Shown: piece by piece, positions 3,603 to 58,500 of the stretch
How the letters are laid out: each line of letters opens with the position of its first letter
Position numbering within the stretch: position 1 is the first letter of the stretch
Assembly: GCF_900109825.1 (NCBI RefSeq)
Contig: NZ_FOBL01000015.1
Span: 1-63,578 of the forward strand
From: Alkalibacterium putridalgicola
GTDB taxonomy: Bacteria; Bacillota; Bacilli; Lactobacillales; Carnobacteriaceae_A
DNA: 63,578 bases
Direction of reading: 5' to 3'
Program-made: the position numbers and the translations under genes
The notes under the pieces: generated by a model
Seen by the model: the letters and a program-made list of their open reading frames with translations, nothing else
Told to the model about the DNA's origin: nothing
Databases searched by the model: none

Positions 3603-4112
3603 GATATTCAGTTCACTCACGGAAACGCTTGACTGAGTACTGCTAATGTTCCCTGCATTCGACGTACTCGCGGACAAAACTGCTTGAGTAATGCTAATGT
3701 TGCCTTCATTCGGCGTACCCACGGACAAAAACTCCTTGAGCACTGCTAATGTTGCCTTCATTCGGCGTACCCACGGACAATACTCCTTGAGCACTGCTAA
3801 TGTTGCCTTCATTCGACGCACTCACGTACAAAATTCCTTGAGTACTGCTAATGAGGCCTGCATTCGACGTACTGACCGACAAAACCGCTTGAGTACTGCT
3901 AATGCTGCCTTCATTCGACGCACTCACGGCCAAAGCTGCTTGAATAATGCTAATGACGTTCTCATTCGACGTACCCACGGACAAAATGGTCTTCAGTACT
4001 GCCAATGTTGCCTTCATTCGGCGTACTCACGGCCAAAGCTGCTTGAGTAATGCTATTGACGTTCTCATTCGACGTTCTGACCGGCAAAACCGCTTGAGTA
4101 CTGTTAATAGTT
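3603..4112. repeat. array A: ten 51-bp hairpin-plus-linker units
   Basis: A core TGCTAATG (with small changes) recurs at 3641, 3692, 3744, 3795, 3846, 3897, 3948, 4000, 4051 and 4102, so the period is 51 or 52 bp. Each unit is an imperfect inverted repeat of about 35 nt, with outer arms GAGTAC and GTACTC (best at 3635-3669), followed by a linker resembling ACGGACAAAACTGCTT. A degenerate half unit precedes the first. The array fills the 870-bp gap between pyc and purR. Because 51 is divisible by three, several frames stay open on both strands; these are not genes. Function unknown. Confidence 0.9.
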
Positions 4113-4153
4113 GAACTAAAGTAAAAACAGGATAACTCGATCAAATAAGGTCT

Positions 4154-4175
4154 GGATCAGGCTGCAGCCTGATCC
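4154..4175. repeat. perfect 22-bp palindrome beside array A
   Basis: GGATCAGGCTG followed by its exact reverse complement, with no loop. It is flanked by an outer pair AAGGTCT (4147-4153) and AGACCTT (4188-4194). There is no T-run, so it is not a typical terminator. It lies between the end of array A and the pyc terminator. It could be a protein-binding site or a cruciform; nothing in the sequence decides this. Confidence 0.7.
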
Positions 4176-4234
4176 CACCTATCTGAAAGACCTTAGAATG
4201 AACAGATGACTGATTTCAGTAATTCATATCAGAT

Positions 4235-4266
4235 AAAAAGTCTGCGCTTTATTCGCGCAGACTTTT
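4235..4266 (-). terminator. terminator of pyc
   Basis: Perfect 12-bp stem AAAAGTCTGCGC / GCGCAGACTTTT with a short loop and flanking A/T tracts. It begins 3 nt past the pyc stop codon. Confidence 0.9.
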
Positions 4267-4268
4267 CC

Positions 4269-7200
4269 TTATTTTGTTTCGATTTCAACAAGCAGATCAT
4301 TGGTTTGTATCGTGTCGCCTTCTTTGACAAAGAGACGCTCGACTTTCCCGGCGATACCGGAACGGATCGTCGTTTCCATTTTCATGGCTTCTGTTATGAC
4401 GATCGGATCACCTTTATCAACCTTATCACCACGATTAACCAGTACTTGAAGTACAGAACCGGGCATGGTAGCGCCGACGTGACCTTTGTTTGTCGGCTCA
4501 GCCTTTTTACGGACCGCTTTCGTATTCGTCACGTTTTTATCTTTGACTTCGATCTGCCTTCCCTGTCCGTTAAGCTCGAAATACAGGACACGGTTTCCTT
4601 CCAGATCGGGATCGCCGATTTGATTCAGTTTAATGATCAGTGTTTTCCCTTTTTCCAGGGTCACTTCCACCTGTTCACCCATTCGCATGCCGTAGAAGAA
4701 TGTCGGCGTATCGAATTTGGTGACTTCACCGTACATATTGTAGAAGAATGTATAGTCCAGGAAGACCTGCGGATACATGATATAGCCCATAACTTCTTCT
4801 TCCGTCGGTTCACGGTCCAGGTGTTCGCTTAATTCTTTTCTCACTTCATTAAAATCAAGCGGTTCTTTATATTCGCCAGGTCTTTTTTCTAAAGGTTTAT
4901 CCCCATTCAGAACCAGTTTCTGAAGTTTCTCAGGGAAGCCGCCTTCGGGCTGACCCAGTTCACCTTTGAAGAAACGCACGACTGATGTCGGGAAGTCCAG
5001 GTCCTCACCTTTTTCATAAACCTCTTCTTCCGTCAGTTCATTCTGGATCATATAAAGAGCCATATCACCAACGACTTTAGAAGAAGGCGTGACTTTTACG
5101 ATATCTCCAAACATGCGGTTGACCACAGCATACATTTCTTTGATATCGTCCCACTGATCTTCAAGACCAACCCCCTTGGCCTGCTGTTTCAGGTTTGTGT
5201 ACTGGCCGCCAGGCATCTGGTGCGTGTAGACTTCCGTTGAAGCCGCCGGCATACCTTCTTCAAAATCAGCATAGTACTTACGTATATCTTCCCAGTAGTG
5301 ATTCAGCTGTTCCACATTCTTGATGTTATATTTGGGCGCATGCGTGGTGCCTTCCAGCGCATAGTACAGACTTCCCATACTTGGCTGACTGGTTTTTCCA
5401 CTCAAGGCACTTTGAGCCACATCTACGATATCCACACCTGCCCGGATCGCTGCACCGTAAGTGTAAATACCATTCCCACTGGTGTCATGCATATGGAGGT
5501 GAATGGGGATAGAAACAGTTTCTTTCAATTCCCCGATCAGGCGGTAAGCGGCATGCGGTTTAAGCAAACCGGCCATATCTTTGATCGCCAGGATGTGTGC
5601 GCCTGTTGCTTCAAGCTCTTTCGCCATGCGTTTGTAGTAGTTCATCGTGTATTTTGTCTGAGACGGGTCAAGAAGATCCCCGGTATAGCAGATCGTTGCT
5701 TCGGCTATCTTGTTGTTGTCTCTGACATACTGGATGCTTTTCTCCATTTGCGGGATCCAGTTCAAGCTATCGAAGATACGGAACACATCGATCCCATTTT
5801 CTGCAGCCAGTCGGATGAATTCTTCCAGCACGTTGTCCGGATAATTGTCATAACCGACGGCATTGGATCCGCGGAACAGCATCTGAAAGAGTGTATTCGG
5901 CATTTTCTCCCGCAGCTTTCTCAAACGTATCCATGGGTCTTCAGTCAGGAAGCGGTAGGCCACATCGAAAGTGGCACCTCCCCACATCTCTACAGAGAAT
6001 AGTTCAGGAATGGCTTTCTCCGTTTCTTCCGCGATCGCCAGCATGTCATGTGTACGCATACGGGTGGCCAGAAGACTCTGATGTGCATCACGCAGAGTCG
6101 TATCTGTCAGAAGGACTGAATCCTGTGCTTTGACCCATTCCGATACTTTTTCCGGTCCTTCTTTATCCAGGATATGTTTAGGATAAACCAGCTCTTTTGA
6201 AGGCTGGATGATTTTTTTAGGCATTCTTGGTTCTTTAAATGCGCGTTTCTCTATTTTACCTATGCCTGGGAATCCGTTGACCGTCACGTTGCCGATATAT
6301 TTCAGGGTCTTGTTGCCTCGGTCTCTGATTTTAGGGTATTCAAACAGTTCCGGTGTCTCATCGATGAAACGGGTCGTCACTTTCCCACTTCGGAAAGTCG
6401 GATGTTTCAGAACATTGATAAGAAACGGAATATTCGTTACAACACCACGGATGCGGAATTCGATCAGGGCACGGGTCATTTTCTGTACCGCTTGTTTATA
6501 ATCCAGGCCTTCTGTCGACAGTTTGACAAGGAGCGAGTCAAAGAACGGCGTGACTACAGAACCCTGAAAACCGTTTCCGGCGTCCAGACGTATACCGAAT
6601 CCCCCCGGCGAGCGGTAGGTATTGATTTTTCCTGTATCCGGCAGGAAACCGTTGGCCGGATCTTCAGTGGTGATGCGGCACTGGATAGCTGCGCCTTTCA
6701 GTTTAATGTCTTCCTGTTTAGGTATCCCGATATCTTTATGCAGATCCTGGCCTTGTGCGATCAGGATCTGAGTCTGAACGATATCTATGCCTGTCACCAT
6801 TTCAGTGATGGTATGCTCGACCTGCACACGGGGATTGACTTCAATAAAGTAGAATGCGTCATTTTCCAGCAGGAATTCTACCGTTCCAGCATTCACATAA
6901 CCGACATGTTCCATCAGCTTAACAGCTGTCTGACACAGTTCTTCTCTTAATGCGGGATCCAAGTCCACACATGGGGCAACTTCAACGACTTTCTGATGGC
7001 GTCTCTGGACCGAACAGTCTCTTTCAAACAAGTGGATAATGTTGCCGTGACTGTCACCAAAGATCTGCACTTCGATGTGTTTCGGATTAGCGATATATTT
7101 TTCGATATAGATATCATCCTGACCAAAGGCCGCTTTTGCTTCACTTTTGGCTCTTTCAAATCCTTCAGCTGCTTCGACTTCATTGTTTGCAACACGCATG

Positions 7201-7700
7201 CCGCGTCCGCCGCCGCCCATTGCCGCTTTCATCATGATCGGGTAACCATATGTTTCTCCAAATGAAAGGACAGCTTTCACGTCATCGACAGGTCCGTCAG
7301 TTCCTGGAACAGTCGGGATACCGGCTTCCTTTGCTACAGTTTTCGCTTTGATTTTGTCTCCGAATATGTCTAAATGATGTGTGTCCGGACCGATAAAGGT
7401 CAGACCTTCTGCTTCGCATCGCTCAGCAAATTCCAGATTTTCAGAAAGAAAGCCGTAACCCGGATGAATCGCATCCGCTCCTGCCTCCTTGGCCACTTGA
7501 ATGATGCTTTCACTGTCCAGATATGCTTCGATCGGTTTTTTACCTTTGCCTACGAGATAAGCTTCATCAGCTTTGAAACGGTGTACGCTTGCTTCATCTT
7601 CCAGTGCATAGATGCCCACTGTATCGATATTCAGTTCAGCCAGTGCTCTGAAGATGCGGATAGCTATTTCACCTCTATTGGCGACTAATACTTTTTTCAT
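4269..7700 (-). CDS. pyc: pyruvate carboxylase
   Basis: A 1143-residue biotin enzyme that makes oxaloacetate from pyruvate, bicarbonate and ATP in the cytoplasm. All three parts are present: a biotin carboxylase domain (residues 1 to about 450, opening KVLVANRGEIAIRIFRA, with the ATP-grasp glycine-rich loop GGGGRGMR), a carboxyltransferase barrel starting near residue 530 (LLTDTTLRDAHQSL), and a C-terminal biotinyl domain whose acceptor lysine is in EAMKMET. The length equals that of other single-chain enzymes. GAGGTG precedes the ATG. In a glucuronide- and glycerol-using fermenter it would feed aspartate synthesis and gluconeogenesis. It has its own terminator and is probably monocistronic. 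Confidence 0.96.
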   Translation of the reverse strand: MKKVLVANRGEIAIRIFRALAELNIDTVGIYALEDEASVHRFKADEAYLVGKGKKPIEAYLDSESIIQVAKEAGADAIHPGYGFLSENLEFAERCEAEGLTFIGPDTHHLDIFGDKIKAKTVAKEAGIPTVPGTDGPVDDVKAVLSFGETYGYPIMMKAAMGGGGRGMRVANNEVEAAEGFERAKSEAKAAFGQDDIYIEKYIANPKHIEVQIFGDSHGNIIHLFERDCSVQRRHQKVVEVAPCVDLDPALREELCQTAVKLMEHVGYVNAGTVEFLLENDAFYFIEVNPRVQVEHTITEMVTGIDIVQTQILIAQGQDLHKDIGIPKQEDIKLKGAAIQCRITTEDPANGFLPDTGKINTYRSPGGFGIRLDAGNGFQGSVVTPFFDSLLVKLSTEGLDYKQAVQKMTRALIEFRIRGVVTNIPFLINVLKHPTFRSGKVTTRFIDETPELFEYPKIRDRGNKTLKYIGNVTVNGFPGIGKIEKRAFKEPRMPKKIIQPSKELVYPKHILDKEGPEKVSEWVKAQDSVLLTDTTLRDAHQSLLATRMRTHDMLAIAEETEKAIPELFSVEMWGGATFDVAYRFLTEDPWIRLRKLREKMPNTLFQMLFRGSNAVGYDNYPDNVLEEFIRLAAENGIDVFRIFDSLNWIPQMEKSIQYVRDNNKIAEATICYTGDLLDPSQTKYTMNYYKRMAKELEATGAHILAIKDMAGLLKPHAAYRLIGELKETVSIPIHLHMHDTSGNGIYTYGAAIRAGVDIVDVAQSALSGKTSQPSMGSLYYALEGTTHAPKYNIKNVEQLNHYWEDIRKYYADFEEGMPAASTEVYTHQMPGGQYTNLKQQAKGVGLEDQWDDIKEMYAVVNRMFGDIVKVTPSSKVVGDMALYMIQNELTEEEVYEKGEDLDFPTSVVRFFKGELGQPEGGFPEKLQKLVLNGDKPLEKRPGEYKEPLDFNEVRKELSEHLDREPTEEEVMGYIMYPQVFLDYTFFYNMYGEVTKFDTPTFFYGMRMGEQVEVTLEKGKTLIIKLNQIGDPDLEGNRVLYFELNGQGRQIEVKDKNVTNTKAVRKKAEPTNKGHVGATMPGSVLQVLVNRGDKVDKGDPIVITEAMKMETTIRSGIAGKVERLFVKEGDTIQTNDLLVEIETK

Positions 7701-7789
7701 CCAATTTTCACCTCGTCCTTATTTATATGAATATTCTATCATCATTTTCTAAGCTTACACCTTATTTTACCAGAGTTTCAGCCTAAATA

Positions 7790-7827
7790 AAAAAGAATTT
7801 AAAAAGAATGCTTATCCGCACTCTTTT
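7790..7827 (-). terminator. terminator of the GGDEF gene
   Basis: Stem AAAAGAGTGC / GCATTCTTTT (one G-U pair) followed on the minus strand by a T-rich tract. It lies between the stop codon of the cyclase gene and the start of pyc, separating their transcripts. Confidence 0.65.
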
Positions 7828-7850
7828 TTCACCCTTTATTTTCTTTCAAT

Positions 7851-8927
7851 TTATACACTGACTCTGTTTCTCCCGTCATTCTTGGACTTGTAGAGAAGCA
7901 CATCAGCCATTTCGATCATATCTGACAGATGGTTGATCGTTTCCGGATAAACCGTCACGCCTAGTGATACGGTTACTGGGATACTGACTAAATTATGGGT
8001 AATGAAATGATGCTGTTCCACTTTCATTCTTATAGACTCAGCTAGTCTAACAGCCTCCGCTTTATCACTCTTTGGTAGAACGACAGCAAATTCTTCTCCA
8101 CCTTTTCTAAAGGCTATTCCTCTTTTTCCAATGACCTCTTCCAGAATGTGTCCAAGCTCTACCAGTACATAATCGCCAGCAGAATGACCATAGGCATCGT
8201 TGGTCTGTTTAAAATGATCGATATCAAGGAGAATGAGGGCACAGGATTCCTGATTTACTTGCGCATCCTGCGAGACTTTTCCCCAGAAATCTTCAAAGCG
8301 TCTGACATTGCTCAAACCCGTTAGAAAATCCGTCGAAGATTCGATCTGATACTTATTAAAAAGGTATTCCGAATTCCTGATGTAATTGACAAGATAAACA
8401 GCGGACATCCCGGCTAATGTTGAGATCACCCAGAACAGCAGTGTAAGAGGCGCCAGATTTATTCCATCAGTCAGGTAAATAAGAAAAACTGTCACAACAC
8501 TATTGGAATACAGGGTGAAGAACAGCCCTTTTTTCAACATGCTTTCTTCATTTTTTAAAATTTGGTCCAAAACGATATAACCTGCTAAGAGCACCATTGC
8601 CATATGGATTGCATAAACAGCCGATCGCCCTGTACCGATCTGAAACCGGCTTAAAGCAATAATGAGACTGCTGATCAGAGCTGGCCGTTTCCCCACAAAG
8701 AGTACCAGCAGCATGATTGGCACATACCTGAAATCTAAAATCGTATTTGAAGTGACACGAATAGAAAAAGACATCAGGAGGTAGCCCATCAGCCCTCCGC
8801 ATAGTCCATCAATCGTTAGCGACAGCCCTGGTATGGAAGATTTTTTGTGACTTTTCCACCTGACCTGCATGTAGATAAAAATCAGCGAAATAACGATTGA
8901 AAAATTGATAAATAAATCCCGACCCAT
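7851..8927 (-). CDS. membrane-bound diguanylate cyclase (GGDEF)
   Basis: The first 190 or so residues contain five or six hydrophobic segments resembling the 5TM-5TMR-LYT sensor region. A GGDEF domain follows (from about STDFLTGLSNVRRF). The active-site loop is RKGGEEF, a functional form of the motif, and the metal-binding DIDHFKQTND is present, so it should make cyclic di-GMP from GTP. The inhibitory RxxD site normally five residues ahead of the loop is absent. Two starts compete: an ATG at 8948 with a modest AGGA, and the ATG at 8927 with the stronger AGAAGGGG; I prefer the latter. Signal and targets are unknown. Confidence 0.88.
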   Translation of the reverse strand: MGRDLFINFSIVISLIFIYMQVRWKSHKKSSIPGLSLTIDGLCGGLMGYLLMSFSIRVTSNTILDFRYVPIMLLVLFVGKRPALISSLIIALSRFQIGTGRSAVYAIHMAMVLLAGYIVLDQILKNEESMLKKGLFFTLYSNSVVTVFLIYLTDGINLAPLTLLFWVISTLAGMSAVYLVNYIRNSEYLFNKYQIESSTDFLTGLSNVRRFEDFWGKVSQDAQVNQESCALILLDIDHFKQTNDAYGHSAGDYVLVELGHILEEVIGKRGIAFRKGGEEFAVVLPKSDKAEAVRLAESIRMKVEQHHFITHNLVSIPVTVSLGVTVYPETINHLSDMIEMADVLLYKSKNDGRNRVSV

Positions 8928-9164
8928 CTGATACCCCTTCTCATTCATAAAATCCTATTTAAGTGTGTTGTTTGATTGTGTGGAATTTTTTTACATTATT
9001 AAACATAATAAGAGTGTATCATGTTAGTGGCCTGGAGACAAAATGGCCTTTACTCTGCTTATGTCATTCTGTTCCTTTTTACACGAGTTTTTCCCCTTCT
9101 TCCCTATTATGGCCAGTAAAGGTGATCACTCATCAGCTTTCACGCTCATTCGTGTTTTTAGAAC

Positions 9165-9194
9165 AAAAAAGGCCGGGAACCATCCCCAGCCTTT
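9165..9194 (-). terminator. terminator of the zinc transporter operon
   Basis: Stem AAAGGCTGGG / CCCGGCCTTT (one mismatch) with six T on the minus strand, about 30 nt beyond the znuB stop codon. The 150 bp between it and the cyclase gene hold nothing I can name. Confidence 0.8.
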
Positions 9195-9222
9195 CATCTC
9201 AATTATCTGATTCAACAACCCT

Positions 9223-10685: not shown

Positions 10686-10713
10686 TTTTAACTCTTGTTT
10701 AAGAGATCAGGAT

Positions 10714-11804: not shown

Positions 11805-11818
11805 GCAAATTTTTTTCC

Positions 11819-21414: not shown

Positions 21415-21655
21415 GATAAATACTTTCAGCGATGAACAGGCGCAGTAGTTTTTCTGGTTTTTGTAAGAGAGCGGATGGCTGGTGAAAATCCGTATGATCA
21501 GATAAAACGAAGTACACCTCGGAGCTTTTCTCTTTTGAGCGCGACCCGGCGTTATGGGGATGAGTGAAGTCATTTTTTTATTGACTTTGATCTGGGTGGT
21601 ACCACGGCATTGTTCGTCCCGGCAAAAAGCACACGCTTTTTGCGGGGCTTTTTTT
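21415..21655 (+). promoter_or_regulatory. tyrosine T-box leader
   Basis: The conserved T-box core TGGGTGGTACCACGG lies at 21593-21607. Just after it, a terminator stem (about 21618-21630 with 21635-21647) is followed by seven T. The likely specifier codon is TAC (tyrosine) at 21513-21515, within the GAAGTACACC loop of stem I. When uncharged tRNA-Tyr binds, the antiterminator formed by the T-box sequence replaces the terminator and tyrS is read. Stem I and the linker have the expected length. Confidence 0.92.
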
Positions 21656-21691
21656 ATTGCATACAATCATGAAAAGGGAGAATACGTGAAT

Positions 21692-22957
21692 ATGAATATA
21701 CTAGACGAACTGGAATGGCGCGGAGCCATCAACCAGCAGACAGACGAAGAAGGTCTGCGCGAACTGACCAACGAGAAAGATATCGCCTTATACTGCGGGA
21801 TCGACCCATCAGGTGACAGCATGCATGTGGGACACTTGATCCCCTTCATGATCCTGAAACGATTCCAACTGGCGGGACATAGACCCGTTATCCTGATCGG
21901 CGGCGGAACAGGATCGATCGGAGACCCCAGCGGACGTAATTCCGAACGTGTCCTCCAGACCATGGACCAGATCGAGATGAACGCTAACAAACTGAGCAGT
22001 CAGATGCGCCAGCTGTTTGAGGCTGGTTCAGAACACTCCGGGATCAAACTCGTCAATAACTATGACTGGCTGAAAGAACTCTCTTTCCTGGATTTCCTCC
22101 GTGACTTCGGCAAGGAATTCAATATCAATACGATGCTGGCGAAAGACGTGGTGTCAAGCCGTTTAGATACTGGCATCTCCTTTACTGAATTTAGCTATCA
22201 GATCATCCAGTCTGTCGACTTCCTGCATTTATTCCAGAACGAAGACGTGCAGCTGCAGATCGGCGGTTCCGATCAGTGGGGCAATATCACGGCCGGACTG
22301 GACTTGATCCGTAAAAAAGAAGGCGCAGAGTCCAAAGCCTTTGGACTGACCATTCCCCTGCTTCTGAAAGCAGATGGCACAAAATTCGGTAAATCAGCAG
22401 ACGGCGCGATCTGGCTGGATCCTGAAAAGACGACCCCTTACGAATTCTACCAGTTCTGGTTCAACCAGGATGATCGTGATGTCGTCAAGTACTTGAAGTA
22501 CTTCACTTTCCTTTCAAAAGAGGAAATCGAAACTCTGGCTGAACAAGTAGAAACCGAGCCGCACAAGCGTGCCGCTCAAAAAGCTTTAGCTGAAGAAATG
22601 ACACGTTTTGTCCACGGTCAGGACGCATTGGATGAAGCCATCAAGATCAGTCAGGCACTCTTTTCCGGCGAGATCCAGGAACTGACAGCGGACCAGATCG
22701 CCGCCACCTTTAAAGATGTGCCGTCATCAGAAGCACCTGCCGGCGAACATGGTTTGGTCGAGTTTCTGGTGGATATCACTAAAATCGAACCGTCACGACG
22801 TCAAGCACGCGAAGACATCAAAAACGGTGCGATCCGCCTCAAGGGGATTCAAGTCAAAGATGTCGATTACACCGTGACAGAAGACGACAGCTTCGACGGC
22901 CGTTTTGTTATCGTACGTAAAGGTAAAAAGAAATACTTCCTGGTTCATTTAGTTTAA
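21692..22957 (+). CDS. tyrS: tyrosyl-tRNA synthetase
   Basis: A 421-residue class I synthetase, the same length as Bacillus TyrS. The HIGH-type motif is MHVGHLIP, the KMSKS-type motif is KFGKSADG, and a C-terminal S4 RNA-binding domain is present (about residues 355-421). The ATG at 21692 lies 11 nt after AAGGGAG; a GTG two codons earlier is 5 nt from that site and could also serve. The open frame runs further upstream through the T-box terminator, but that part is untranslated leader. It is the only long plus-strand gene between 2.4 kb and the right end. Confidence 0.96.
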   Translation: MNILDELEWRGAINQQTDEEGLRELTNEKDIALYCGIDPSGDSMHVGHLIPFMILKRFQLAGHRPVILIGGGTGSIGDPSGRNSERVLQTMDQIEMNANKLSSQMRQLFEAGSEHSGIKLVNNYDWLKELSFLDFLRDFGKEFNINTMLAKDVVSSRLDTGISFTEFSYQIIQSVDFLHLFQNEDVQLQIGGSDQWGNITAGLDLIRKKEGAESKAFGLTIPLLLKADGTKFGKSADGAIWLDPEKTTPYEFYQFWFNQDDRDVVKYLKYFTFLSKEEIETLAEQVETEPHKRAAQKALAEEMTRFVHGQDALDEAIKISQALFSGEIQELTADQIAATFKDVPSSEAPAGEHGLVEFLVDITKIEPSRRQAREDIKNGAIRLKGIQVKDVDYTVTEDDSFDGRFVIVRKGKKKYFLVHLV

Positions 22958-22972: not shown

Positions 22973-23015
22973 AAAAACGATCCCGCCTTCAGAGAAAGAA
23001 GGCGGGATCGTTTTT
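22973..23015 (+). terminator. terminator of tyrS
   Basis: Long perfect stem AAAAACGATCCCGCCTTC / GAAGGCGGGATCGTTTTT, 15 nt after the tyrS stop codon. Its A and T tracts are symmetric, so it can work from both strands. Confidence 0.9.
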
Positions 23016-23044: not shown

Positions 23045-23440
23045 GAGTTCATAAAAACCGGTTTTGCTTTTATGAACTCCTCTGTATTTATCTTTCAGGT
23101 TGAGAGAAGAACTGGCTTCTTTTAGCAGCTGCTACCGAAATGTTCACAGGAGTTCATAGAAGATCGGCCATCTTTTGGCAACACTTTAGTCTTTTACCAT
23201 CGAGTTATAAGAAGACACCCCTTCTTTTCATAACTCCGGGCCTTTTTTGATTTGGGATACTAGAAAAAGACCCTTCTTCTAGTAACTCGCTCTTATTTTC
23301 TATACTAAGTTCACAGAAGTTACCTCTTCTTCTAGTAACTCGACAGCTTTGGCTGCTTCTGTTCCGATAACATTTATACCCTTCTGCCAGCTTCCTGTCG
23401 ATAACTAAGTGAGTTAACAAAAGACGACCTTCAGAAATCA
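23045..23440. repeat. array B: eight hairpin units at 51-54 bp spacing
   Basis: Units start near 23045, 23099, 23150, 23202, 23254, 23307, 23358 and 23411. Four of them are inverted repeats of exactly 35 nt: 23045-23079, 23202-23236, 23254-23288 and 23307-23341. The clearest has arms GAGTTATAAGAAG and CTTCTTTTCATAACTC. The 16-19-nt linkers between hairpins differ from one another, whereas the arms are conserved. There are no T-runs after the hairpins. The array fills the gap between the convergent 3' ends of tyrS and the DUF1002 gene. Function unknown. Confidence 0.85.
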
Positions 23441-23477
23441 AAAAAAAGACCGAATCACATTCACATGTGATTCGACC
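23440..23477 (-). terminator. terminator of the DUF1002 gene
   Basis: Stem GTCGAATCACAT / ATGTGATTCGGTC with eight T on the minus strand, ten nt past the stop codon. It abuts the last unit of array B. Confidence 0.88.
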
Positions 23478-23486
23478 CTTAGGATT

Positions 23487-24452
23487 TTAGTTGAAGAAAT
23501 TTCTGATCGCTTCCCATAACTGACTGAAGAAGTTGCCGATCTGGTCGATCAGACCGCTGTCTTCAGCGTCCTGCCAGACATCTCCGAAACGGTCTCTGAT
23601 GTTCGTGGACAGATTCTCCAGTTGTTCTCTTACTTGAGCAGAATCGATGGCCCCGGTCTGCTGATAGCGTTCAAAGAAAGCCAGCAGGCGGTCGATCTGT
23701 TCCTGACTGATCACGTTCTGCAGATCATTGTTTTCCAGCGCTTCATTGATGATGCGCTCAATATCTTCACGTGTAGCCAGTTCATTCTGCTGTTCGCGGA
23801 GGTCGGCCAGCTGCTGTTTGATCTCAACGATCGCCTGATCAAAGCGGGAGGTATCGAATCCTTCTTCCCCGGTGTTCGCCTGAGCGATATCGTTGGTCGT
23901 TTCCAGTTCTTCCTGGGCCACTTCCATGCGGTCCTGGTCCAGATCTTCACCGTTCACGTCAAAGGCTTTATAAATGCCGGTCAAAGCACTTTCGCCGGTA
24001 ACAGGACGGATACTGGCGACCATGATGGTCACATCTTCTACACCTGCTGTGATGGCTGCATTGGCATACTGTTCTTCGGTTATTTCCGTGATATCATCCG
24101 GTGTTTCGATCAGGACACTGACGCCGTCGCCTTCATCCTCACGTTGAACCAGAACGGAGGAAATCATGCTGGCCGTGTTGCCAGATCCGGTCCCCAGATA
24201 ATTCTGCAGATCTTCACCTGTCACATCCACGCCTGCAACGTTTTCTCTGTTATCGATCCCCAATAGATCCGCTGTTTCAGCGATCTGAGCCTCATCCAGC
24301 CCGCCGCCATAAACAAAGGTTGGCAGTCCCCAGGCTTCATCCACCACACTTGTATCGATGCCTTCAGAAGCATTGACAGTCGACATCGGAACCACTGACA
24401 AGACACTCAATGCGGTAATATAACCAAGTTTTCTTTTCAATTCTTTAATCAT
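23487..24452 (-). CDS. secreted DUF1002 protein (YpuA-like)
   Basis: A 321-residue protein with a signal peptide (basic start MIKELKRK, hydrophobic core, cut near VNASE), so probably exported. The body matches DUF1002: VYGGGLDEAQIAETADLLGI, a GTGSGNTASMISSV segment, and a second half rich in charged residues that looks alpha-helical (about residues 190-290). The C-terminus is aromatic, ending WEAIRNFFN. The Bacillus relative YpuA has no known molecular function. GGAGAG precedes the ATG. It is a monocistronic gene. Confidence 0.85.
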   Translation of the reverse strand: MIKELKRKLGYITALSVLSVVPMSTVNASEGIDTSVVDEAWGLPTFVYGGGLDEAQIAETADLLGIDNRENVAGVDVTGEDLQNYLGTGSGNTASMISSVLVQREDEGDGVSVLIETPDDITEITEEQYANAAITAGVEDVTIMVASIRPVTGESALTGIYKAFDVNGEDLDQDRMEVAQEELETTNDIAQANTGEEGFDTSRFDQAIVEIKQQLADLREQQNELATREDIERIINEALENNDLQNVISQEQIDRLLAFFERYQQTGAIDSAQVREQLENLSTNIRDRFGDVWQDAEDSGLIDQIGNFFSQLWEAIRNFFN

Positions 24453-24504: not shown

Positions 24505-24630
24505 CCACCCTCCTTCACTTTTGACTATTCACACTATAAATGATCAACCTATATAATGACTTTAAAACTGAAGAAAATAAGAATCGATCAATAAGCTGAT
24601 AGGACGATTTAAACTTTTACCATTAAGGGA

Positions 24631-24662
24631 AAGAAGCATCGACTTTATAGCCGATGCTTCTT
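24631..24662 (-). terminator. terminator of the NAD(P)-binding gene
   Basis: Perfect stem AAGAAGCATCG / CGATGCTTCTT, about 20 nt past the stop codon at 24683; the T-tract on the minus strand is interrupted by C. Confidence 0.65.
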
Positions 24663-24682
24663 CATCAAATATTTTCAGTTTA

Positions 24683-25336
24683 TTAAAGGCCGTTCAGTGC
24701 ATCTTCAACAGACTTATCTCCTGTGACCAGATCAAATGACTTGTGGTAGGTGTTTTCATTTTCAAGAGATGCAGCCAGGACTTTAGCCACATCGACCCGA
24801 GGGATACTGAATACATCTGAATCGGTAATGACATCTTTGGCAAGGACTTTGCCGATCGTTTCTTTGTTTTCAAGCATACCCGGACGCACAATGGTATAAT
24901 TCAGACTCGAATCCATCAGCCACATGTCCGCAAAGTGCTTCGCTACATAATACGGCTTGAGTTCTTCATTCCATCTGTCCCGATCATCGGCCCCAAAGGC
25001 ACTGACCATCACAAACCGGTCGATTCCGCTGGCTTTGGTCGCTTCAATGACTTTCACTGCTCCGTCCAGGTCGATCAGCAGAGTCTTATCAGACCCCGTA
25101 CTGCCGCCTGAACCGGCTGTAAAGACCACAGCATCGATATCAGCCATACGCTCTTTGATTTCATCTACAGAGTCTTCCAGATTGCCTAGTCTTGCTTCGA
25201 CGTCCTGTTCTTTGAATTTTTCTACCTGTTCTTCTTTTCTGACAAAAGCGACGGGCTTATGTTTACCTTCATCCTTCAACTCATCCACTAAGTGTTGTCC
25301 GATCTGACCATTCGCTCCAACAATCAATACATTCAT
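24683..25336 (-). CDS. NAD(P)-binding atypical SDR (YhfK/NmrA-like)
   Basis: A 217-residue Rossmann-fold protein with the glycine motif VLIVGANGQIGQHL at the N-terminus, the short form typical of atypical short-chain dehydrogenases such as Bacillus YhfK. The conserved VVFTAGSGGSTG and MVSAFGADDRD segments are present. The substrate is unknown; many relatives bind the cofactor and act as redox sensors or flavin-type reductases. GAAGGAGCG precedes the ATG. It stands alone between two terminators. Confidence 0.8.
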   Translation of the reverse strand: MNVLIVGANGQIGQHLVDELKDEGKHKPVAFVRKEEQVEKFKEQDVEARLGNLEDSVDEIKERMADIDAVVFTAGSGGSTGSDKTLLIDLDGAVKVIEATKASGIDRFVMVSAFGADDRDRWNEELKPYYVAKHFADMWLMDSSLNYTIVRPGMLENKETIGKVLAKDVITDSDVFSIPRVDVAKVLAASLENENTYHKSFDLVTGDKSVEDALNGL

Positions 25337-52580: not shown

Positions 52581-52622
52581 AAAACACTCACTTCCCGTTT
52601 CGTTTAGCTTTTGACTTGCAGA

Positions 52623-53789
52623 TTATTTCGTTTCGAATTTGCCTTCTTCTTTGATGTGCTTGTTCAATTCTTCCAGATAGAAATCTTCGTCCAGATCTTT
52701 CAGGCTGACTTCTTTTTTAGTCCAGCTTGACAAGTGGATAGCATTGGCCAGTCGCACGCCGTTGATCCCATCAGAACCGGGTGCGAGAAGCGGTGTGCCG
52801 TCCAGAACATTGGCTGCAAAGTTTTCAAGAACGCCAGCATGCTGTTCGCCCCAGGCACTTTCGAACTCGATCGTTTCCTGTGTGTACAAGTCATCCATGT
52901 TCATTTGACCCATGAAGAGTTTTTTAACATCTTCCATGCCCATTTCGCTGCTTAATTCCTGTTCAGGTTTTTTCAGTCGTGTCACAGTAGCTACCTGGCT
53001 GCCGTCTACGACAATTTTACCTTTATCTCCAAGGATCTCAAAGCGGTCTGTACCAACGATGTCATGTGTGGCTGTGACAAACGTTCCTGTCGCGCCGTAA
53101 CCGTAATCAACGACTGCAGTCACTTCATCTTCGACAGCGATATTGCGACGGAAACCATAAGAAACTTTAGAATAAACAGATTCCGGCACGCCGCAGATCC
53201 ACTGCCATAAGTCCAGCTGATGCGGTGCCTGGTTGACCAGGACGCCTCCGCCTTCGCCGCCCCATGTTGCACGCCATTCGCTTTGATCATAATAAGGCTG
53301 TGGTCTCCACCAGGTCGTAATGATCCAGTTGGTACGACGGATCTTACCGATGTCACCATTATCCACGATCTCTTTGATTTTTTTGTATAAAGGGTTGTTA
53401 CGCTGGTTGAACATGATACCAAAGGTCAATTCAGGTTTTGAAGCAGCAAATTCGTTCAGTTCCTTGACCTGTTTCGTGTAAACACCTGCAGGTTTTTCAA
53501 CTAATGCATGAATATCGCGTTTTAAAGCGGCAATACCCATCTCCGGATGCAGGTAGTGAGGCACTGTTGTAATGATCGCATCCACTTTGCCGCTGTCCAG
53601 CATTTCGATGTAGTCTTCATAAAAAGGAACGCCTTGATATTCTGCGTCTACTGTTTCTTTTTTAGAAACATCGATATCACAGATCGCCGCGATCTCCATG
53701 TTCGGCACCATGCCGTCTTTAATAAATTTCGCATACATGCCGCCTTGTGTACCTAATCCGATAATGCCTAATCTTACTTTTTTACTCAT
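52623..53789 (-). CDS. Gfo/Idh/MocA-family oxidoreductase, first of the operon
   Basis: A 388-residue dehydrogenase with the cofactor motif LGIIGLGTQGGMYAKFI, the EKP motif in ALVEKPAGVYTKQV and the substrate-side NQAPHQLDLWQWI. A tryptophan-rich segment (TTWWRPQPYYDQSEWRATWGGEGG) suggests a bulky or cyclic sugar ligand. The ATG at 53789 is 6 nt after TAGGTG; a GTG three codons upstream is less well placed. It starts 9 bp after the araC stop codon, so both are co-transcribed. Confidence 0.88.
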   Translation of the reverse strand: MSKKVRLGIIGLGTQGGMYAKFIKDGMVPNMEIAAICDIDVSKKETVDAEYQGVPFYEDYIEMLDSGKVDAIITTVPHYLHPEMGIAALKRDIHALVEKPAGVYTKQVKELNEFAASKPELTFGIMFNQRNNPLYKKIKEIVDNGDIGKIRRTNWIITTWWRPQPYYDQSEWRATWGGEGGGVLVNQAPHQLDLWQWICGVPESVYSKVSYGFRRNIAVEDEVTAVVDYGYGATGTFVTATHDIVGTDRFEILGDKGKIVVDGSQVATVTRLKKPEQELSSEMGMEDVKKLFMGQMNMDDLYTQETIEFESAWGEQHAGVLENFAANVLDGTPLLAPGSDGINGVRLANAIHLSSWTKKEVSLKDLDEDFYLEELNKHIKEEGKFETK

Positions 53790-53798
53790 TCTATTCAC

Positions 53799-54701
53799 CT
53801 ATTCCCTTTCAGTTATGATCATTTTTTTATACTGTTTTGGAGTCATCCCCGTTCGCTTCTTGAAAAAGCGATTAAAATGGGCATCGCTTTCAAAACCGCA
53901 TTCCAACGCACATTCTTTGATCGTCGTTTCATGAGGAGCGAGACCCATGTACGCCTTAGCCTGGATCAGCCGATAATTCATCAGGTATTCCATCACCGTG
54001 TAGCCCGTGACTTCTTTAAAGAGATGCGACACATAGGATTCGCTCAGATTCAGCGCTTTGGCGATCCCCTTGATAGTCATCTTCTGGTTGAAGTGCTGCT
54101 GGACATATGAAGCGATCTCTTCCGCCATCCTGGCTTTGTCTGTCTTGGCAAAACTGTCCTTCATCACATCAGACTTTTCTGATCGATAGACTTTCATCAG
54201 GAGATAAAGCAGGGTGATCCTGGCATCGGCTTCGTTCACACCCGACTGTTCTCTATGAGTGATGTGACTCAGTTTCTCGATGAGCCGGATGACTTCATCC
54301 AAGTCTTCCGGCTCATCAAATGTAAATATCCGGTGGTGAAAGGCTTTAAAATAATCAAGAAGAAACGACGCATCACTCCCGGCTATTAAATCCTCCAGCC
54401 ACTTCGGATCAAAGTGGGTATGGCTCCTGACATACTCTTTCTCGTTCCCGGTCACTTGGACTTTATGAAGTTCCGTACCGTCGAGCAGAATAACCGTTCC
54501 CGGATGCAGCTCGAATATCTGATTATTGATCAGATACTGGGCTTTTCCTTCCTGAAGAACGTAGATTTCAAACTGCTGATGGGAATGGAACTCATACGGA
54601 ATCGCTAAACCCTTTACACTTGCCTGTGCGATAAGGTTCGGCGCGAAACTGAAATGATCCTCCTTTTTTGGATGCCCTTTCATTATAGAGGTTTTCTTCA
54701 T
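53799..54701 (-). CDS. AraC-family regulator with cupin sensor
   Basis: A regulator of about 300 residues: an N-terminal cupin (PYEFHSHQQFEIYVLQEGKAQY, ELHPGTVILLDGTELHKV) and two helix-turn-helix motifs at the C-terminus (MTIKGIAKALNLSESYVSHLFKEVTG and ECALECGFESDAHFNRFFKKRTGMTPKQYKK). It heads the operon of oxidoreductases and probably activates it on sensing the substrate. The ATG at 54701 is 11 nt after AGAGG; an ATG three codons before is too close. The open frame extends far upstream, but that part runs through a terminator and another gene's end and is not coding. Confidence 0.9.
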   Translation of the reverse strand: MKKTSIMKGHPKKEDHFSFAPNLIAQASVKGLAIPYEFHSHQQFEIYVLQEGKAQYLINNQIFELHPGTVILLDGTELHKVQVTGNEKEYVRSHTHFDPKWLEDLIAGSDASFLLDYFKAFHHRIFTFDEPEDLDEVIRLIEKLSHITHREQSGVNEADARITLLYLLMKVYRSEKSDVMKDSFAKTDKARMAEEIASYVQQHFNQKMTIKGIAKALNLSESYVSHLFKEVTGYTVMEYLMNYRLIQAKAYMGLAPHETTIKECALECGFESDAHFNRFFKKRTGMTPKQYKKMIITERE

Positions 54702-54790
54702 GATTATCATTGCCTCTTTCTGTAAACATTTGTATGTAAAATTGACTGAAACTGCTTTTATCTTACGGGAAGCACTGAGCGAGTGCAAGT

Positions 54791-54842
54791 AAAAAGAGTA
54801 GAAAAGATCGAACGTCAGCCGTTCGATCCTTTCTACTCTTTT
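54791..54842 (-). terminator. terminator of the DUF2207 gene
   Basis: Very long stem, AAAAGAGTAGAAAGGATCGA and further to ACG, pairing over about 23 bp with one mismatch, T-run on the minus strand. It lies 30 nt past the stop codon and blocks read-through into araC. Confidence 0.92.
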
Positions 54843-54871
54843 ATTCATGCCTGGCGATGATCCCGCCGGAG

Positions 54872-56581
54872 TCAGCGTACACCGCCACCGCCTCCACCGA
54901 TCGCGCCGCCACCGCCGCCGATCGACGTCGGGCCACCCGTGCCCCCTGTGTGCGTATAGCCGCCATTGGACAAACCGGTATGCACGCTGGTCGACATCAT
55001 ATGAATCCCATAATAGCCTGTGTAAAAATAAGGGAGCCCCTCGATCAGCTGTGTCTGCCATTCAGGTACAACCTCTTCCAGCTGGCTGATGACATCTTCT
55101 TCCTTGCCATAAAGACTTGCCCAGATCAGAAAATCTTTTTCTTCAATAAGCTGTCGGTAAGACAGTGACGGGTCTTTTTTCAAGGCATTGATATGATTTT
55201 CAAACTGGGTCAACCGGTCATACAGCTTCTGACCTTTTTTGGTGATCCCCATAAAAGGCAGCTTCATTGTCATGAATTTCAGCATTTTCTCTTTCAGGTA
55301 ACCTTCCTTGATCAGTACAGCCTGTGATTCATCCATCAGACTTTGCTGCAGTGCCTGAAGCTCTTTACCGTTCTTCTCTGCCCAACTGGTCATCTCTTCA
55401 TTTGTCAGTTGATTCTTGTCATCCGATGCTGCCACGAAGAGTTCCCACAGTTCCAGTTCAAAATGGGAGGTATTCAGACTGTTCTCTCTTTTCTTCCGGA
55501 AAGTGTGTGGAGCAAAAGTCAGGACTGTTGTTTCTGCATCACCTGACTCATCTGCTTCTGTTTTGATAGAAACCAGTTTCTCTTTTGACCATTTAAGCAA
55601 ATAGGCAAAGATATACTGCTCATATGTCCCTTTGTGAAGGTGTTGAAGGAAATAGGCAATATCCGTCAGTTCCCCATCTTTGTAAGGGATCGCTGTAAAC
55701 ATCAAGCCCTTATTGCGTTTGCGTTGAATGGATGCCGACGGGACTTTGCCTTGTTCTTTTTTCCTGGCATCGATATTAAATAAAGCAAAGATAAAGGCCA
55801 GAAAGCCCGCGACAAGAAAAGCGAGGGCCGTCGCAAGAATGGAACTGTCAATGGATCCCTCTCCACCTCGACTGGTTTCCGCCTCAGCACGTTCGACCTG
55901 TTCTTCCAGCGTTTCATCGACATAATAAGACGGGATGAATGGATCATTCATAAACTGCATCAGTATCGCTACAGGCCGGTCGGCTTCGACTCCACCTTCT
56001 GAAGTTGAGCGCAGGACGCCGTCAACCAGATCCACTTGCCCTTCATATCCGAAACCATAAAGACGTGTATCTTCTTCAGAAAAAGGCTGTGGCCCGCTTA
56101 TTTCAATAACCAGATTTTCCGGTTCAAGTTCTCCGAAAGTATTGAAATCCCAGAACAGCGACTGCCCGTCATTCAACTGTCTGACCACATTGGCTACAGC
56201 ATAAGAAAGTGTGTACGACTGTTCTCCGTATTCGCTTATGCCCCAGACCAGTTCTATGCTGTCCCCGTCTTGAATCATTCCATAAGTCCCGGCTTTTTCT
56301 TCCCGAGACAGATCAGAATCCCAGTCGTCTACTTCCCTCAAACCATCCACTTGAAAATCAAGGAGTTCCAACCCATCTTCTTCATTGATGACGATATAAA
56401 GTTCCGTGCCGCTGTCCAGGATCATGTCTCTCTCTTCCGTAATAATGCCTGTCCCGTTCTCAAGCAGCTCGACCGATACGCGCATCTCAGTCATTTCATT
56501 TTCCTGAGCATGAACGGTGCCGCTGACCATCATTGAGCTGAACACCAACACAAGCATCCAACCTATCCAACTATTTTTCAT
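54872..56581 (-). CDS. DUF2207 membrane protein with glycine-rich tail
   Basis: A 569-residue protein: signal peptide (residues 1-26, VHAQE cleavage), an extracellular DUF2207 domain of about 200 residues, one membrane helix (SSILATALAFLVAGFLAFIFALF, near 250), then a cytoplasmic part of 300 residues. The C-terminus is almost only glycine (GGGGGAIGGGGGGVR), as in many DUF2207 proteins, whose function is unknown. GGAGG fixes the start at 56581, five codons after the first in-frame ATG. It is monocistronic with a strong terminator. Confidence 0.85.
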   Translation of the reverse strand: MKNSWIGWMLVLVFSSMMVSGTVHAQENEMTEMRVSVELLENGTGIITEERDMILDSGTELYIVINEEDGLELLDFQVDGLREVDDWDSDLSREEKAGTYGMIQDGDSIELVWGISEYGEQSYTLSYAVANVVRQLNDGQSLFWDFNTFGELEPENLVIEISGPQPFSEEDTRLYGFGYEGQVDLVDGVLRSTSEGGVEADRPVAILMQFMNDPFIPSYYVDETLEEQVERAEAETSRGGEGSIDSSILATALAFLVAGFLAFIFALFNIDARKKEQGKVPSASIQRKRNKGLMFTAIPYKDGELTDIAYFLQHLHKGTYEQYIFAYLLKWSKEKLVSIKTEADESGDAETTVLTFAPHTFRKKRENSLNTSHFELELWELFVAASDDKNQLTNEEMTSWAEKNGKELQALQQSLMDESQAVLIKEGYLKEKMLKFMTMKLPFMGITKKGQKLYDRLTQFENHINALKKDPSLSYRQLIEEKDFLIWASLYGKEEDVISQLEEVVPEWQTQLIEGLPYFYTGYYGIHMMSTSVHTGLSNGGYTHTGGTGGPTSIGGGGGAIGGGGGGVR

Positions 56582-56683
56582 TAGTACGTCCTCCATTTTT
56601 TCCTCTTGTTACTAGTATATAAAAGACAGGTCTGAATGATAACGGTCTTAGGACTGATTTTTCATTTTTTCAGATATATACGC

Positions 56684-56866
56684 TTAAATATTCCAGTTTC
56701 CCGGACTCCAGAGTGTTCCGTCCAGTTCCCCCTGCAGCTGTTCTCTTCGTTTTTCCTGTTCTTCAAGCAAAGCGATCGTTGCCTGAAGCAGTGCTTTCTG
56801 TTTGTAGTCCCGGCTGTCACTTTCCAGCTGTTCCAGCTGTTTTACCAGCCACTGATGCTCTTCCAT
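56684..56866 (-). CDS. small coiled-coil protein of unknown function
   Basis: A 60-residue protein, rich in Glu, Gln and Leu, predicted to be one long helix (residues 1-48) and ending in a Trp/Gly/Asn tail. AGAGGG lies 5 nt before the ATG, and the gene starts 18 bp after the quinone reductase gene in the same direction, so it looks genuinely translated. I do not recognise a family. Confidence 0.6.
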   Translation of the reverse strand: MEEHQWLVKQLEQLESDSRDYKQKALLQATIALLEEQEKRREQLQGELDGTLWSPGNWNI

Positions 56867-56884
56867 ACTATCCCTCTACTTCCT

Positions 56885-57583
56885 TTATATATCATAGTTA
56901 TCGATATGCAGACGCAGCTCGTCCAGTTCCATGCGATTGTCTTCAATAGCCTCCGCAGCGGCTTCAAGAACGAATGCGGCATCTTCAGTCGGCAAGGTTT
57001 CTTTCGATGTCTTTGCCAGCTGATCGAGTACCCAGTTTTCCTTTCTCTTCAATGAAATAGGCTGAGGCAGACTGAGATACTGCTGGTAATCGACAAGCAG
57101 CGCTTTTTTCTCAGGTTCCGCCAGATAAGGGAACTGAAAAATCGTTAAAGGTTTCAGATAATGCATCCCAGTCTTTTTGGCCATGGCCTGAAAGGGTTTA
57201 GTCAACTCACTGATACTGAACCCTTCCTGTCCCCCTGTCTGGTATTCCTTTTCCGGCAAGCCAATGACCAGCACCAGTCCGAACTCTTTATCATGCAGTT
57301 TGGTCCCGCGATAACCGAAAGCAAAATGGTCCGTCAAGACTTCATCCTGCCACTTCTTTAAAAGCGGCGGCGAGGAATACCAGTAAAACGGAAACTGAAA
57401 AAGGATCCGATCATGTTCGCGAAGAAGTGCCTGCTCTTTGTCTACATCGATTTCTCCATCAGGATAGGTTTGTTCAAGTACATGTAAAGTGATCTCTTCA
57501 TCGTCCGGTAATGACTGAATCAGGAATTGCTGACTGCCAGATTCTTCGACCGTCGGGTGAGAGACAATAATTAAGGTTTTCAC
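56885..57583 (-). CDS. NAD(P)H dehydrogenase (quinone), flavodoxin-fold
   Basis: A 232-residue flavoprotein of the MdaB/KefF/NQO family. The FMN-binding start TLIIVSHPTVEESGSQQFL, the strand FQFPFYWYSSPPLLKKWQDEVL, and FGYRGTKLHDKEFGLVLVIGLP are typical. It would reduce quinones or nitro compounds with NAD(P)H. The start is GTG at 57583, fixed by AAGGAG 7 nt upstream; an ATG further upstream lacks a site. It is followed by the 60-residue protein gene. Confidence 0.87.
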   Translation of the reverse strand: MKTLIIVSHPTVEESGSQQFLIQSLPDDEEITLHVLEQTYPDGEIDVDKEQALLREHDRILFQFPFYWYSSPPLLKKWQDEVLTDHFAFGYRGTKLHDKEFGLVLVIGLPEKEYQTGGQEGFSISELTKPFQAMAKKTGMHYLKPLTIFQFPYLAEPEKKALLVDYQQYLSLPQPISLKRKENWVLDQLAKTSKETLPTEDAAFVLEAAAEAIEDNRMELDELRLHIDNYDI

Positions 57584-57840
57584 AGTGATTCTCCTTGTAT
57601 ATCTGATTAGTTTTCTCTTAAGCAACTTAAGTATACCAAATCTTCATTATTAAAGTGAATCATTAGAAGCCGCCGGACAAAAGAGATTTATAAACAGTTC
57701 AAACCGGAAGGCTCCGTAATTGAACGGGACGCTTCCGGTTTGTTCCTTTTTGAAAAGTCTTTTTGATTTTTCACTCGTTTACCGCATTAGAATCGATTTA
57801 TTTATGAAGAAATGTCGACTCAATAAGGTCAGTCTGTGTC

Positions 57841-58207
57841 GGTACGACAGTTTCGTCCCAGAAGTGCGTACTCAAAGGTATCAGGGCGCGTGAGTACGAC
57901 ATTCGACTGTGAAAAGTGTTCGCTCATTTGTGTCTGTTGATGCGAGGCCGACATTCGACTGTGGAAAGTGTTCACTCATGAGTGACTTTCGATCTGGGTG
58001 CGACATTTCATGTTGAAAAGTGTCCAGTCGTAACGTCTTGACACACTGAGTACGACATTTCGGTGACGAAAGTGTTCGCTCATGAGTGACTTTCGATCTG
58101 GGTGCGACATTTCATGTTGAAAAGTGTCCAGTCATGGGCTACTTCCCGTCCGAGAACGACATTTTGATCCCACAATGTCGTACTCAGGCATTCTTCCATA
58201 CTTGAGT
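57841..58207. repeat. array C: seven hairpin units with exact 52-bp period
   Basis: The core CGAC occurs at 57845, 57897, 57949, 58001, 58053, 58105 and 58157, exactly 52 bp apart. Each unit holds a 34-nt inverted repeat, arms like GAGTACGACATT and AAAGTGTTCGCTC; the best (58152-58185) pairs ACGACATT with AATGTCGT. Linkers are about 18 nt. A 55-nt block (about 57975-58029 and 58079-58133) occurs twice without change, so one two-unit duplication is recent. The array continues without a phase break into array D. Function unknown. Confidence 0.88.
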
Positions 58208-58500
58208 CGGACATCTTTGCTCTGATATGGCAGACCCAGTTGCTTTCCTTCTGTGACCTTGTTATTTTCCTTCTGAAATGACAAGCTCAGCTGAGTTCTT
58301 CCCGCCACTTTGTCATTTTCTTTCTGAAACGACAAGGTCAGCTGAGTTCTTCCCGTGACTTTGTCATTTTCTCTCTGAGATGACAGACCCAGTCACTTTT
58401 CTTAAGCGACTTTGTCATTTTCACAACCAAATGACAAAGTCGCGGAATACACAGGAGCAAGTTTGTCATCTTCTCTTTAATCGAGCAGAAAAATAGAGGA
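58208..58500. repeat. array D: hairpin units of a second type, in phase with array C
   Basis: Cores (GTCATTTT and variants) at 58210, 58261, 58312, 58363, 58414 and 58465 give a 51-bp period. The best unit (58408-58441) is a perfect 13-bp inverted repeat, GACTTTGTCATTT and AAATGACAAAGTC, of 34 nt in total. Linkers resemble GGTCAGCTGAGTTCTTCCCG. The spacing from the last C unit (58157) to the first D unit is again 51-53 bp. The array ends about 60-90 bp from the stop of the P-loop gene. Open frames across it are by-products of the period. Confidence 0.85.

Follow-up and report, generated by a model that had tools for sequence, protein, structure and literature searches.

CRISPR loci consist of regular, near-identical palindromic repeats separated by unique spacers. 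Several other families of bacterial intergenic repeats, known to us here from extracts of the papers cited, come close to the elements described below. STAR sequences of Staphylococcus lie between genes as tandem repeats about 50 nt long, differ from locus to locus in their spacers, vary in copy number, have species-specific gene neighbours and are defined by a 14-bp GC-rich direct motif, T[GAT]TGTTG[GT]GGCCC[CA] (PMC3532100). REP, BIME and REPIN sequences are extragenic palindromes of 20-40 bp, present in many copies, clustered and lying between co-directional and convergent genes (PMC3733652). BOX elements of Streptococcus are modular (boxA-boxB(n)-boxC), with a variable number of internal units, terminal inverted repeats and target duplications, are biased towards convergent genes, and are present or absent as whole elements (PMC3049150). 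Here we describe arrays of tandem units repeated every 51-53 bp in a contig of Alkalibacterium putridalgicola (NZ_FOBL01000015.1, 63,578 nt; the whole stretch is called the window) and across its genome. Tentatively, and at a little under an even chance, we read them as helically phased arrays whose sites, each about 35 bp long, have two-fold symmetry; in this view they act at the DNA level, have spread as modules and are kept for putative protein binding.

Comparison with described repeats

With STAR the arrays share the intergenic position, the tandem repeat length of about 50 nt and a sequence peculiar to each locus; they differ in being phased palindromes with covarying arms, which are not part of the STAR description in the extract available (PMC3532100). 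Membership was rejected, as the STAR motif occurred exactly in none of 346 loci, and the window held one match with two mismatches where 2.08 were expected. A previous reading of this DNA, made from the sequence only, had known of no named element like it; the likeness in layout to STAR qualifies that statement, although the motif is absent. The dimensions of REP elements are matched by hairpins of 35-36 bp (families B and D, see below) and by 54 family B sites among the covariance-model matches listed. The REP tag, an unpaired GTAG or CGTC end, was rejected: the consensus ends of B and D are paired (GAG/CTC and TGA/TCA), and the adjoining B linkers are as different as shuffled DNA. The Y1 transposase PF01797 was present in 5 of 12 genomes of the genus, our own included, and was not found in the array-bearing genomes G001, G010 (assembly 89% complete) and G011, and a RAYT-linked REP system was therefore rejected.

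The BOX-like traits are the modular build, the variable unit number, the convergent bias, the presence or absence of whole arrays and a candidate end module in four family A arrays of the own genome; BOX elements differ by their terminal repeats and target duplications (PMC3049150), whereas here no conserved left-end module was seen by eye, nor any duplication by eye at locus L032. The arrays resemble CRISPR in their regular palindromic repeats and, in family B, in unique linkers of constant length, and differ from it in hairpins that are only 0.62 identical within an array and in linkers of 17-18 bp. No match to a described family, as the sequence-only reading had supposed, was found in Rfam above threshold. 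At gathering score the window gave only a T-box, and 20 array loci at E <= 0.1 gave one T-box and one tRNA, both outside arrays; 851 bases of L034 searched to E 5 gave 24 matches, none of which reached the gathering score (RsaD, for example, had 27 bits where 50 are required), and these are treated as chance. In titles and abstract openings of the open-licence PubMed Central literature, no description of intergenic 51/52-bp or palindromic tandem arrays was found.

Period, spacing and symmetry of the arrays

The three arrays noticed at first reading proved to be real, with periods of 51 bp (array A), 52-53 bp (array B) and 51-52 bp (arrays C/D) by direct reading, Tandem Repeats Finder (TRF) and a palindrome-chain score. 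This score is independent of sequence, uses palindromes 48.5-55.5 bp apart and was controlled by 40 first-order Markov resamplings of the window; it reached 24.0 for array D (58.14-58.45 kb) and 19.5 for array B (23.04-23.35 kb) against a maximum of 7.5 in the resamplings. Mismatches are frequent in the arms of array A, which for that reason reached no more than 7.5 when scored purely as palindromes; the array rests on its tandem-repeat score (Table 1). Two further stretches of the window slightly exceeded the control (9.5 at 31.3-31.8 kb and 8.5 at 24.62-24.77 kb) and are attributed to chance or to terminator hairpins.

The window corresponds to contig C43 of a genome (G000) of 2.60 Mb in 72 contigs. 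The tyrS-based relatives of this genome are Alkalibacterium (Carnobacteriaceae), the nearest named among those listed being A. subtropicum DSM 23664 (tyrS 96%). Searched with arrays A, B and C/D as DNA queries, the genome gave 36, 16 and 29 matches at E <= 1. The prediction of many more arrays with several arm sequences was confirmed: about 40 arrays emerged from a scan that covered the retrieved loci plus 200 kb of contig C41. This tally started from 45 detector intervals, in which DNA matches, TRF and chain hits were merged; three were dropped (the doubtful stretch 24628-24763 of the window and two copies at contig ends with 100% identity to another contig), and joining of neighbours left 40. 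The arms are GAGYACTGCCAATG..CATTCGACGTACTC in family A, GAGTTATTAAAAGA..TCTTTTAGTAACTC in B, GAGTACGACATT in C and GACTTTGTCATTTT..AAAATGACAAAGTC in D, and at least two additional families occur (C37:60.4-60.7 kb and C10:125-529). By sequence, family A was found only in G000 and G004 among 41 genomes (E <= 0.001).

The spacing is locked in family B. Gaps derived from chains are confined to 48.5-55.5 bp by construction, and for this reason the spacing evidence was taken from a covariance model built from 44 B hairpins, which carries no spacing information. The search scored 150 of 1,478-2,699 candidates per genome (150 of 2124 in our own), and its matches listed for the own genome comprise 54 B sites at ten loci, none of them solitary. 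All 42 adjacent gaps among these matches measure 52 bp (27) or 53 bp (15), with a mean of 52.36 bp, or 5 x 10.47, and two further gaps of 105 bp correspond to one skipped unit; the strict phasing first proposed by eye is thus borne out in this family. Five of these gaps and both of 105 bp come from loci outside the model (C19; C52:52.9-53.2 kb), and one start, C19:394, was extrapolated from a partial match. Identity of the B linkers is 0.30 within arrays, 0.30 between arrays and 0.28 when shuffled; linker sequence is saturated and linker length is constrained. Within the search band of 48.5-55.5 bp, 19 of 23 D gaps and 38 of 40 A gaps are 51 bp.

Scores of the B hairpins against the model are similar for the two strands (e.g., 46.6 and 46.0 bits), so these hairpins are dyad-symmetric. 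When the 3' letters were shuffled among units, the share of paired cells observed in B (82.6% vs 77.5 +/- 1.0) and in D (82.7% vs 78.3 +/- 1.0) was reached by none of 500 shuffles, and double-changed cells were in excess in both families (46 vs 26.5 +/- 5.8 in B, 30 vs 14.2 +/- 4.2 in D). The count of pairs altered on both sides was unremarkable, being reached by 101 of 500 shuffles in B and 50 of 500 in D. Re-dealing of whole 3' arms gave z values of 2.7 for B and 3.8 for D; units failing the foot-motif, parity or score filters were excluded from this test, from model building and from the linker-identity tests. Comparison with the orthologous arrays of G004 points the same way. The D orthologue keeps 56 pairs (44.2 +/- 2.7 expected; 0/2000) and has four double compensatory changes that are still paired (null 1.15; 19/2000), the B orthologue keeps 56 pairs (48.1 +/- 2.9; 12/2000), and the B arms have diverged less than the B linkers (28/168, 17%, vs 30/86, 35%; p 0.0015). 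The compensatory changes that the sequence-only reading had looked for between arms are therefore present in B and D and lacking in A. Its description of every unit as an inverted repeat holds likewise for B and D, and is too general elsewhere: hairpin perfection varies, arm positions 7, 8 and 10 are mostly mismatched in family A, and consensus palindromes in arrays of the genus outside B and D are only moderate (14 units, combined p 0.0015, median p 0.21), so that a hairpin is not claimed for every array of 51-52 bp.

Gene context and the question of RNA function

Context was resolved for 24 of the 40 merged arrays (the remaining 16 lie mostly at contig ends), of which 11 stand between convergent genes, 12 between co-directional genes and 1 between divergent genes. 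Among 88 intergenic regions of at least 50 bp in 200 kb of C41, delimited by open reading frames (ORFs) of at least 100 aa, the corresponding numbers are 9, 68 and 11, which makes the convergent excess significant (p 2.5e-4); the array counts are unchanged with 80 or 100 aa. A terminator-like hairpin lies between the stop codon and the array in 34 of 47 3'-facing genes, compared with 82 of 230 shuffles (37 of 50 vs 92 of 250 before arrays were merged). The placement of arrays at gene 3' ends, as initially described, is thus correct as a bias towards 3' and convergent positions; arrays A and B themselves lie beyond terminator-like hairpins and not directly at the gene ends. At the C/D locus the last clear D hairpin stops at 58443, leaving 118 bp to the gene end at 58562, and a hairpin search of the stretch from stop to array found no terminator-like hairpin there.

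The position behind genes and the covarying arms of B and D would also fit RNA elements, i.e., rows of hairpins in the 3' untranslated part of transcripts that would stabilise messenger RNA or be bound by an RNA-binding protein. The balance of arm mismatches bears on this explanation, given that a G.T mismatch is tolerated in the RNA of one strand and A.C is the same site read on the other strand. In 35 chains, which include a few probable chance chains and duplicate contig ends, G.T and A.C are about equal (236 vs 227), as they are in family B (68 vs 57, p 0.37), and no skew from array to array was detected (heterogeneity p 0.91 in B and 0.37 in D). Family D leans to G.T (38 vs 23, p 0.07), above all in array L056 (14 vs 3, p 0.013), and neither L056 nor the C/D array of the window is preceded by a terminator-like hairpin. 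The near-equality of G.T and A.C suggests that there is no clear RNA-strand signature overall. Together with the dyad symmetry of B and the terminator-like hairpins before arrays, this balance argues on balance for action at the DNA level, less clearly for D than for B; the absence of any Rfam family above threshold adds to the case. RNA function as the main explanation was accordingly rejected as very unlikely.

Array L056 itself (G000 C23:43813-44208), a D array that lies 16 bp behind its gene, is the strongest candidate for a role as RNA.

Turnover between species

G004 carries arrays at all three window positions. Array B is colinear there unit by unit, and arrays A and C are rewritten to a species-specific consensus. 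The local homogenisation postulated from the window alone is therefore found in families A and C and not in B, in which unit identity is 0.62 within one array and 0.63 between arrays. By eye, the gap behind tyrS holds B arrays in G000, G003 and G004 (with an extra array of another family in G004) and different families in G002 and G010; it is cut by a contig end in G001, and no array was seen by eye in G005, G006, G007, G008, G009 and G011. Several of the short contigs retrieved from relatives read as N.

For eight loci of the own genome, selected because they carry arrays, the corresponding regions of G004 and G003 were examined. At L032, 357 bp separate the flanks in the own genome and 7 bp in G004, with no array in G003 either and no target duplication by eye. 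At L034 the distance is 687 bp, against 19 and 24 bp in G004 and G003. The L034 and L035 arrays are 82% identical, which points to copying of an array between these loci; no clear array was seen at L035 in G004 or G003. L048 retains its D array and L002 its A array in G004, and at L060 the C part is retained there, with seven D hairpins in the own genome and one in G004. At L037 a B array in G000 corresponds to another family in G004 and to a third family (51 bp x 8.6) in G003, and at L038 B in G000 stands opposite another family in G004. The same gap thus holds different unit families at three loci (tyrS, L037 and L038).

Such turnover is what would be expected of selfish non-autonomous elements of the STAR, BOX or REP kind, whose hairpins would be recognised by a transposase or recombinase, which would multiply by tandem duplication and be tolerated behind genes, and whose period would be imposed by the enzyme or inherited from a single ancestral unit and would not reflect a host function. 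The arrays missing from sister genomes at L032 and L034, the apparent copying between L034 and L035, the hairpin difference at L060, the exchange of families at one gap, the homogenisation of A and C and the BOX-like convergent bias, taken by the authors of the BOX study as a mark of mobile elements in tolerant sites (PMC3049150, extract), all speak for this explanation. Taken alone, it leaves unexplained the 42 of 42 B gaps of 52-53 bp with randomised linkers, and the missing duplication at L032, the array-bearing genomes in which PF01797 was not found and the composite nature of the L034 insertion count against it. We regard it as the chief rival, plausible and yet distinctly short of an even chance. 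It is also compatible with the reading that we prefer, namely selfish spread followed by retention for binding.

The L034 insertion is regarded as composite because it opens with a 48-bp piece (L034:1174-1225) that we take to resemble a group II intron at its 5' end; Rfam gave no match for it. Two further strong matches to this piece occur in the genome (L343 and L344, near 1501), and all three lie directly after terminator T-runs. A group II intron as carrier of the arrays was rejected, no array having been seen at the two other matches, where the flanks were read and no array scan was run.

Distribution of the period

The range of the period was assessed from intergenic tandem repeats with a period of at least 30 bp; the genus set includes C41 of the own genome, and many of the stretches start at contig ends. 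In 877 kb of Alkalibacterium, 10 of 11 intergenic repeats have a period of 50-52 bp and the remaining one of 154; in addition, two repeats of 51 and one of 102 lie inside ORFs, which perhaps merely extend across the repeat, and there is one of 39. In other Carnobacteriaceae (253 kb) all six intergenic repeats are of 51-52 bp. In Paenibacillaceae and relatives (1,092 kb; L191-L244, tyrS regions) the fraction is 8 of 19 at 50-52 bp, with palindromes in the units weak or lacking (13 arrays, combined p 0.04), so that the period of 50-52 bp may be more widespread than the hairpin. No repeat of period 50-54 was found in Marinilactibacillus (140 kb), in five other Carnobacteriaceae genomes (G014-G018, with 20-60 kb sampled from each) or in the six genomes sampled from five other Lactobacillales families (40-60 kb each), of which three genomes have repeats of at least 30 bp with other periods; G013 of the Carnobacteriaceae has three of period 52. 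A broad sample of Bacillota (20 stretches, 373 kb) showed no period peak and one 51-bp row.

The concentration on a single period is difficult to reconcile with ordinary minisatellites, functionless arrays built by slippage and unequal crossing-over, the arms of which would be kept complementary by template switching. Slippage is not known to prefer one such period, and the randomisation of B linkers almost without change of length would likewise not be expected. The homogenisation of A and C within species is in line with this origin, as are the units at array edges, which look decayed by eye, and template switching is described, in the extract available, as both making and repairing hairpins (PMC8794818). 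A further point in its favour is that 16 contig ends on 14 contigs (C10, C14, C15, C16, C27, C30, C31, C37, C39, C49, C56, C60, C67 and C70) lie within about 170 bp of an array, as assembly-breaking repetitive DNA would. Altogether we consider this origin improbable. From the same 16 ends and from two contig-end pairs that are 100% identical over 536 and 1220 bp (C14/C49 and C56/C72), we propose that the arrays probably break short-read assemblies of the genus.

Proposed function and its significance

If the arrays are indeed kept for protein binding, sites of about 35 bp would be held about five helical turns apart from centre to centre, behind terminators and especially between convergent genes. 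A putative dimeric DNA-binding protein, or a few paralogues, one per arm family, would bind each palindrome, and neighbouring dimers would make contact over the linker along the same helical face, so that selection would keep the spacing and the dyad symmetry and let the linker sequence, and over longer times the arms, drift. The arrays might spread as mobile or expanding modules in the manner of STAR and BOX. In E. coli, BIMEs have been proposed as topological or nucleoid-structuring elements, and by analogy the likely role here would be that of a topological or nucleoid-structuring barrier where convergent or successive transcription meets. Supercoiling is mentioned in the extract of PMC3733652.

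A number of observations weigh against this proposal. The mean period differs between families (52.4 vs 51.1 bp), that is, 10.5 vs 10.2 bp per turn, and the B model was derived from hairpins first detected in spaced chains, with 150 of 2124 own-genome candidates scored. The arms of family A show no covariation (z -2.8 with whole 3' arms re-dealt), the B orthologue has just one double compensatory change where 0.89 is expected, and in the D orthologue the linkers changed less than the arms (6/60 vs 25/140, p 0.20). Covariation alone is no proof of function, because template switching in replication can create or repair hairpins and could yield such patterns without selection (PMC8794818, extract). 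Tolerated insertions such as BOX, RUP and SPRITE likewise sit at convergent 3' ends, according to the extract of PMC3049150. Finally, in view of the G.T excess of family D and of L056, some arrays may have an RNA role.

The three outcomes that the sequence-only reading had named as counting against it (no further arrays, no compensatory changes, a match to a described family) were not found, save for the lack of compensatory changes in family A. A wider proposal is that of a chromosomal architecture element of Bacilli defined by geometry, in which dyad sites are locked at five turns and replaceable families co-evolve with lineage-specific binding proteins; we consider it unlikely. If true, such geometry-defined elements would have a eukaryotic analogue in satellite DNA and the proteins that bind it. 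A shared sequence is what usually defines a repeat family in bacteria, whereas what is retained here from family to family and from species to species is a length and, in several families, a symmetry. It thereby becomes possible to test the helical phasing of a chromosomal element, and the observation may also bear on the size of STAR and other intergenic repeats of about 50 nt in Bacilli.

Features of the window

Table 1. Arrays, terminators and other elements located in the 63,578-nt window
Feature	Position	Strand	Remarks
Array A, ~9.4 units of 51 bp	3634-4113	none	TRF score 548; unit a 35-nt imperfect hairpin GAGYACTGCYAATG-N7-CATTCGACGTACTC plus 16-nt linker; array at same position in G004
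Candidate end-module hairpin GGTCTGGATCAGGC-TGCA-GCCTGATCCCACCT (AATAAGGTCTGGAT..ATCCCACCT)	4149-4180		Right-hand end of array A
Hairpin plus T-run, read as intrinsic terminator of pyc (4269-7700, -)	4236-4266	-	Array A lies beyond
T-box leader upstream of tyrS	21423-21624	+	Rfam RF00230, 104 bits
Terminator hairpin of tyrS (21554-22957, +)	22973-23015	+	
Array B, six 35-nt hairpins	23045-23341		Starts 23045, 23097, 23150, 23202, 23254, 23307; steps 52, 53, 52, 52, 53
Terminator-like hairpin of convergent gene (23487-24452, -)	23445-23480	-	
Array C, 52 bp x 4.7 copies (TRF)	57891-58136		Arms GAGTACGACATT / AAGTGTTCGCTC; 7-copy array at same position in G004
Array D, six hairpins at 51-52 bp	58150-58443		Arms GACTTTGTCATTTT / AAAATGACAAAGTC; first hairpin (58150) C-like
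Another repeated hairpin GTAGGAGGTAAATAA..TTATTTACC	63178-63216		Near array loci also at L034 and L035

Array A lies not only beyond pyc but also 235 bp upstream of the start of purR. A hairpin like the one at 4149-4180 follows the last unit in four family A arrays of the own genome (in the window, L006, L007 and L011) and also ends three family A arrays of G004 (L082, L084 and L087); a conserved hairpin to the right of some family A arrays is thus a possible end module. To the right of the array B hairpins, sequence resembling decayed units extends up to about 23420. The repeated hairpin near the right end of the window, for which a stricter pattern search matched only L173, recurs near array loci at L034:1800-1847 and in L035 near 1255-1290.

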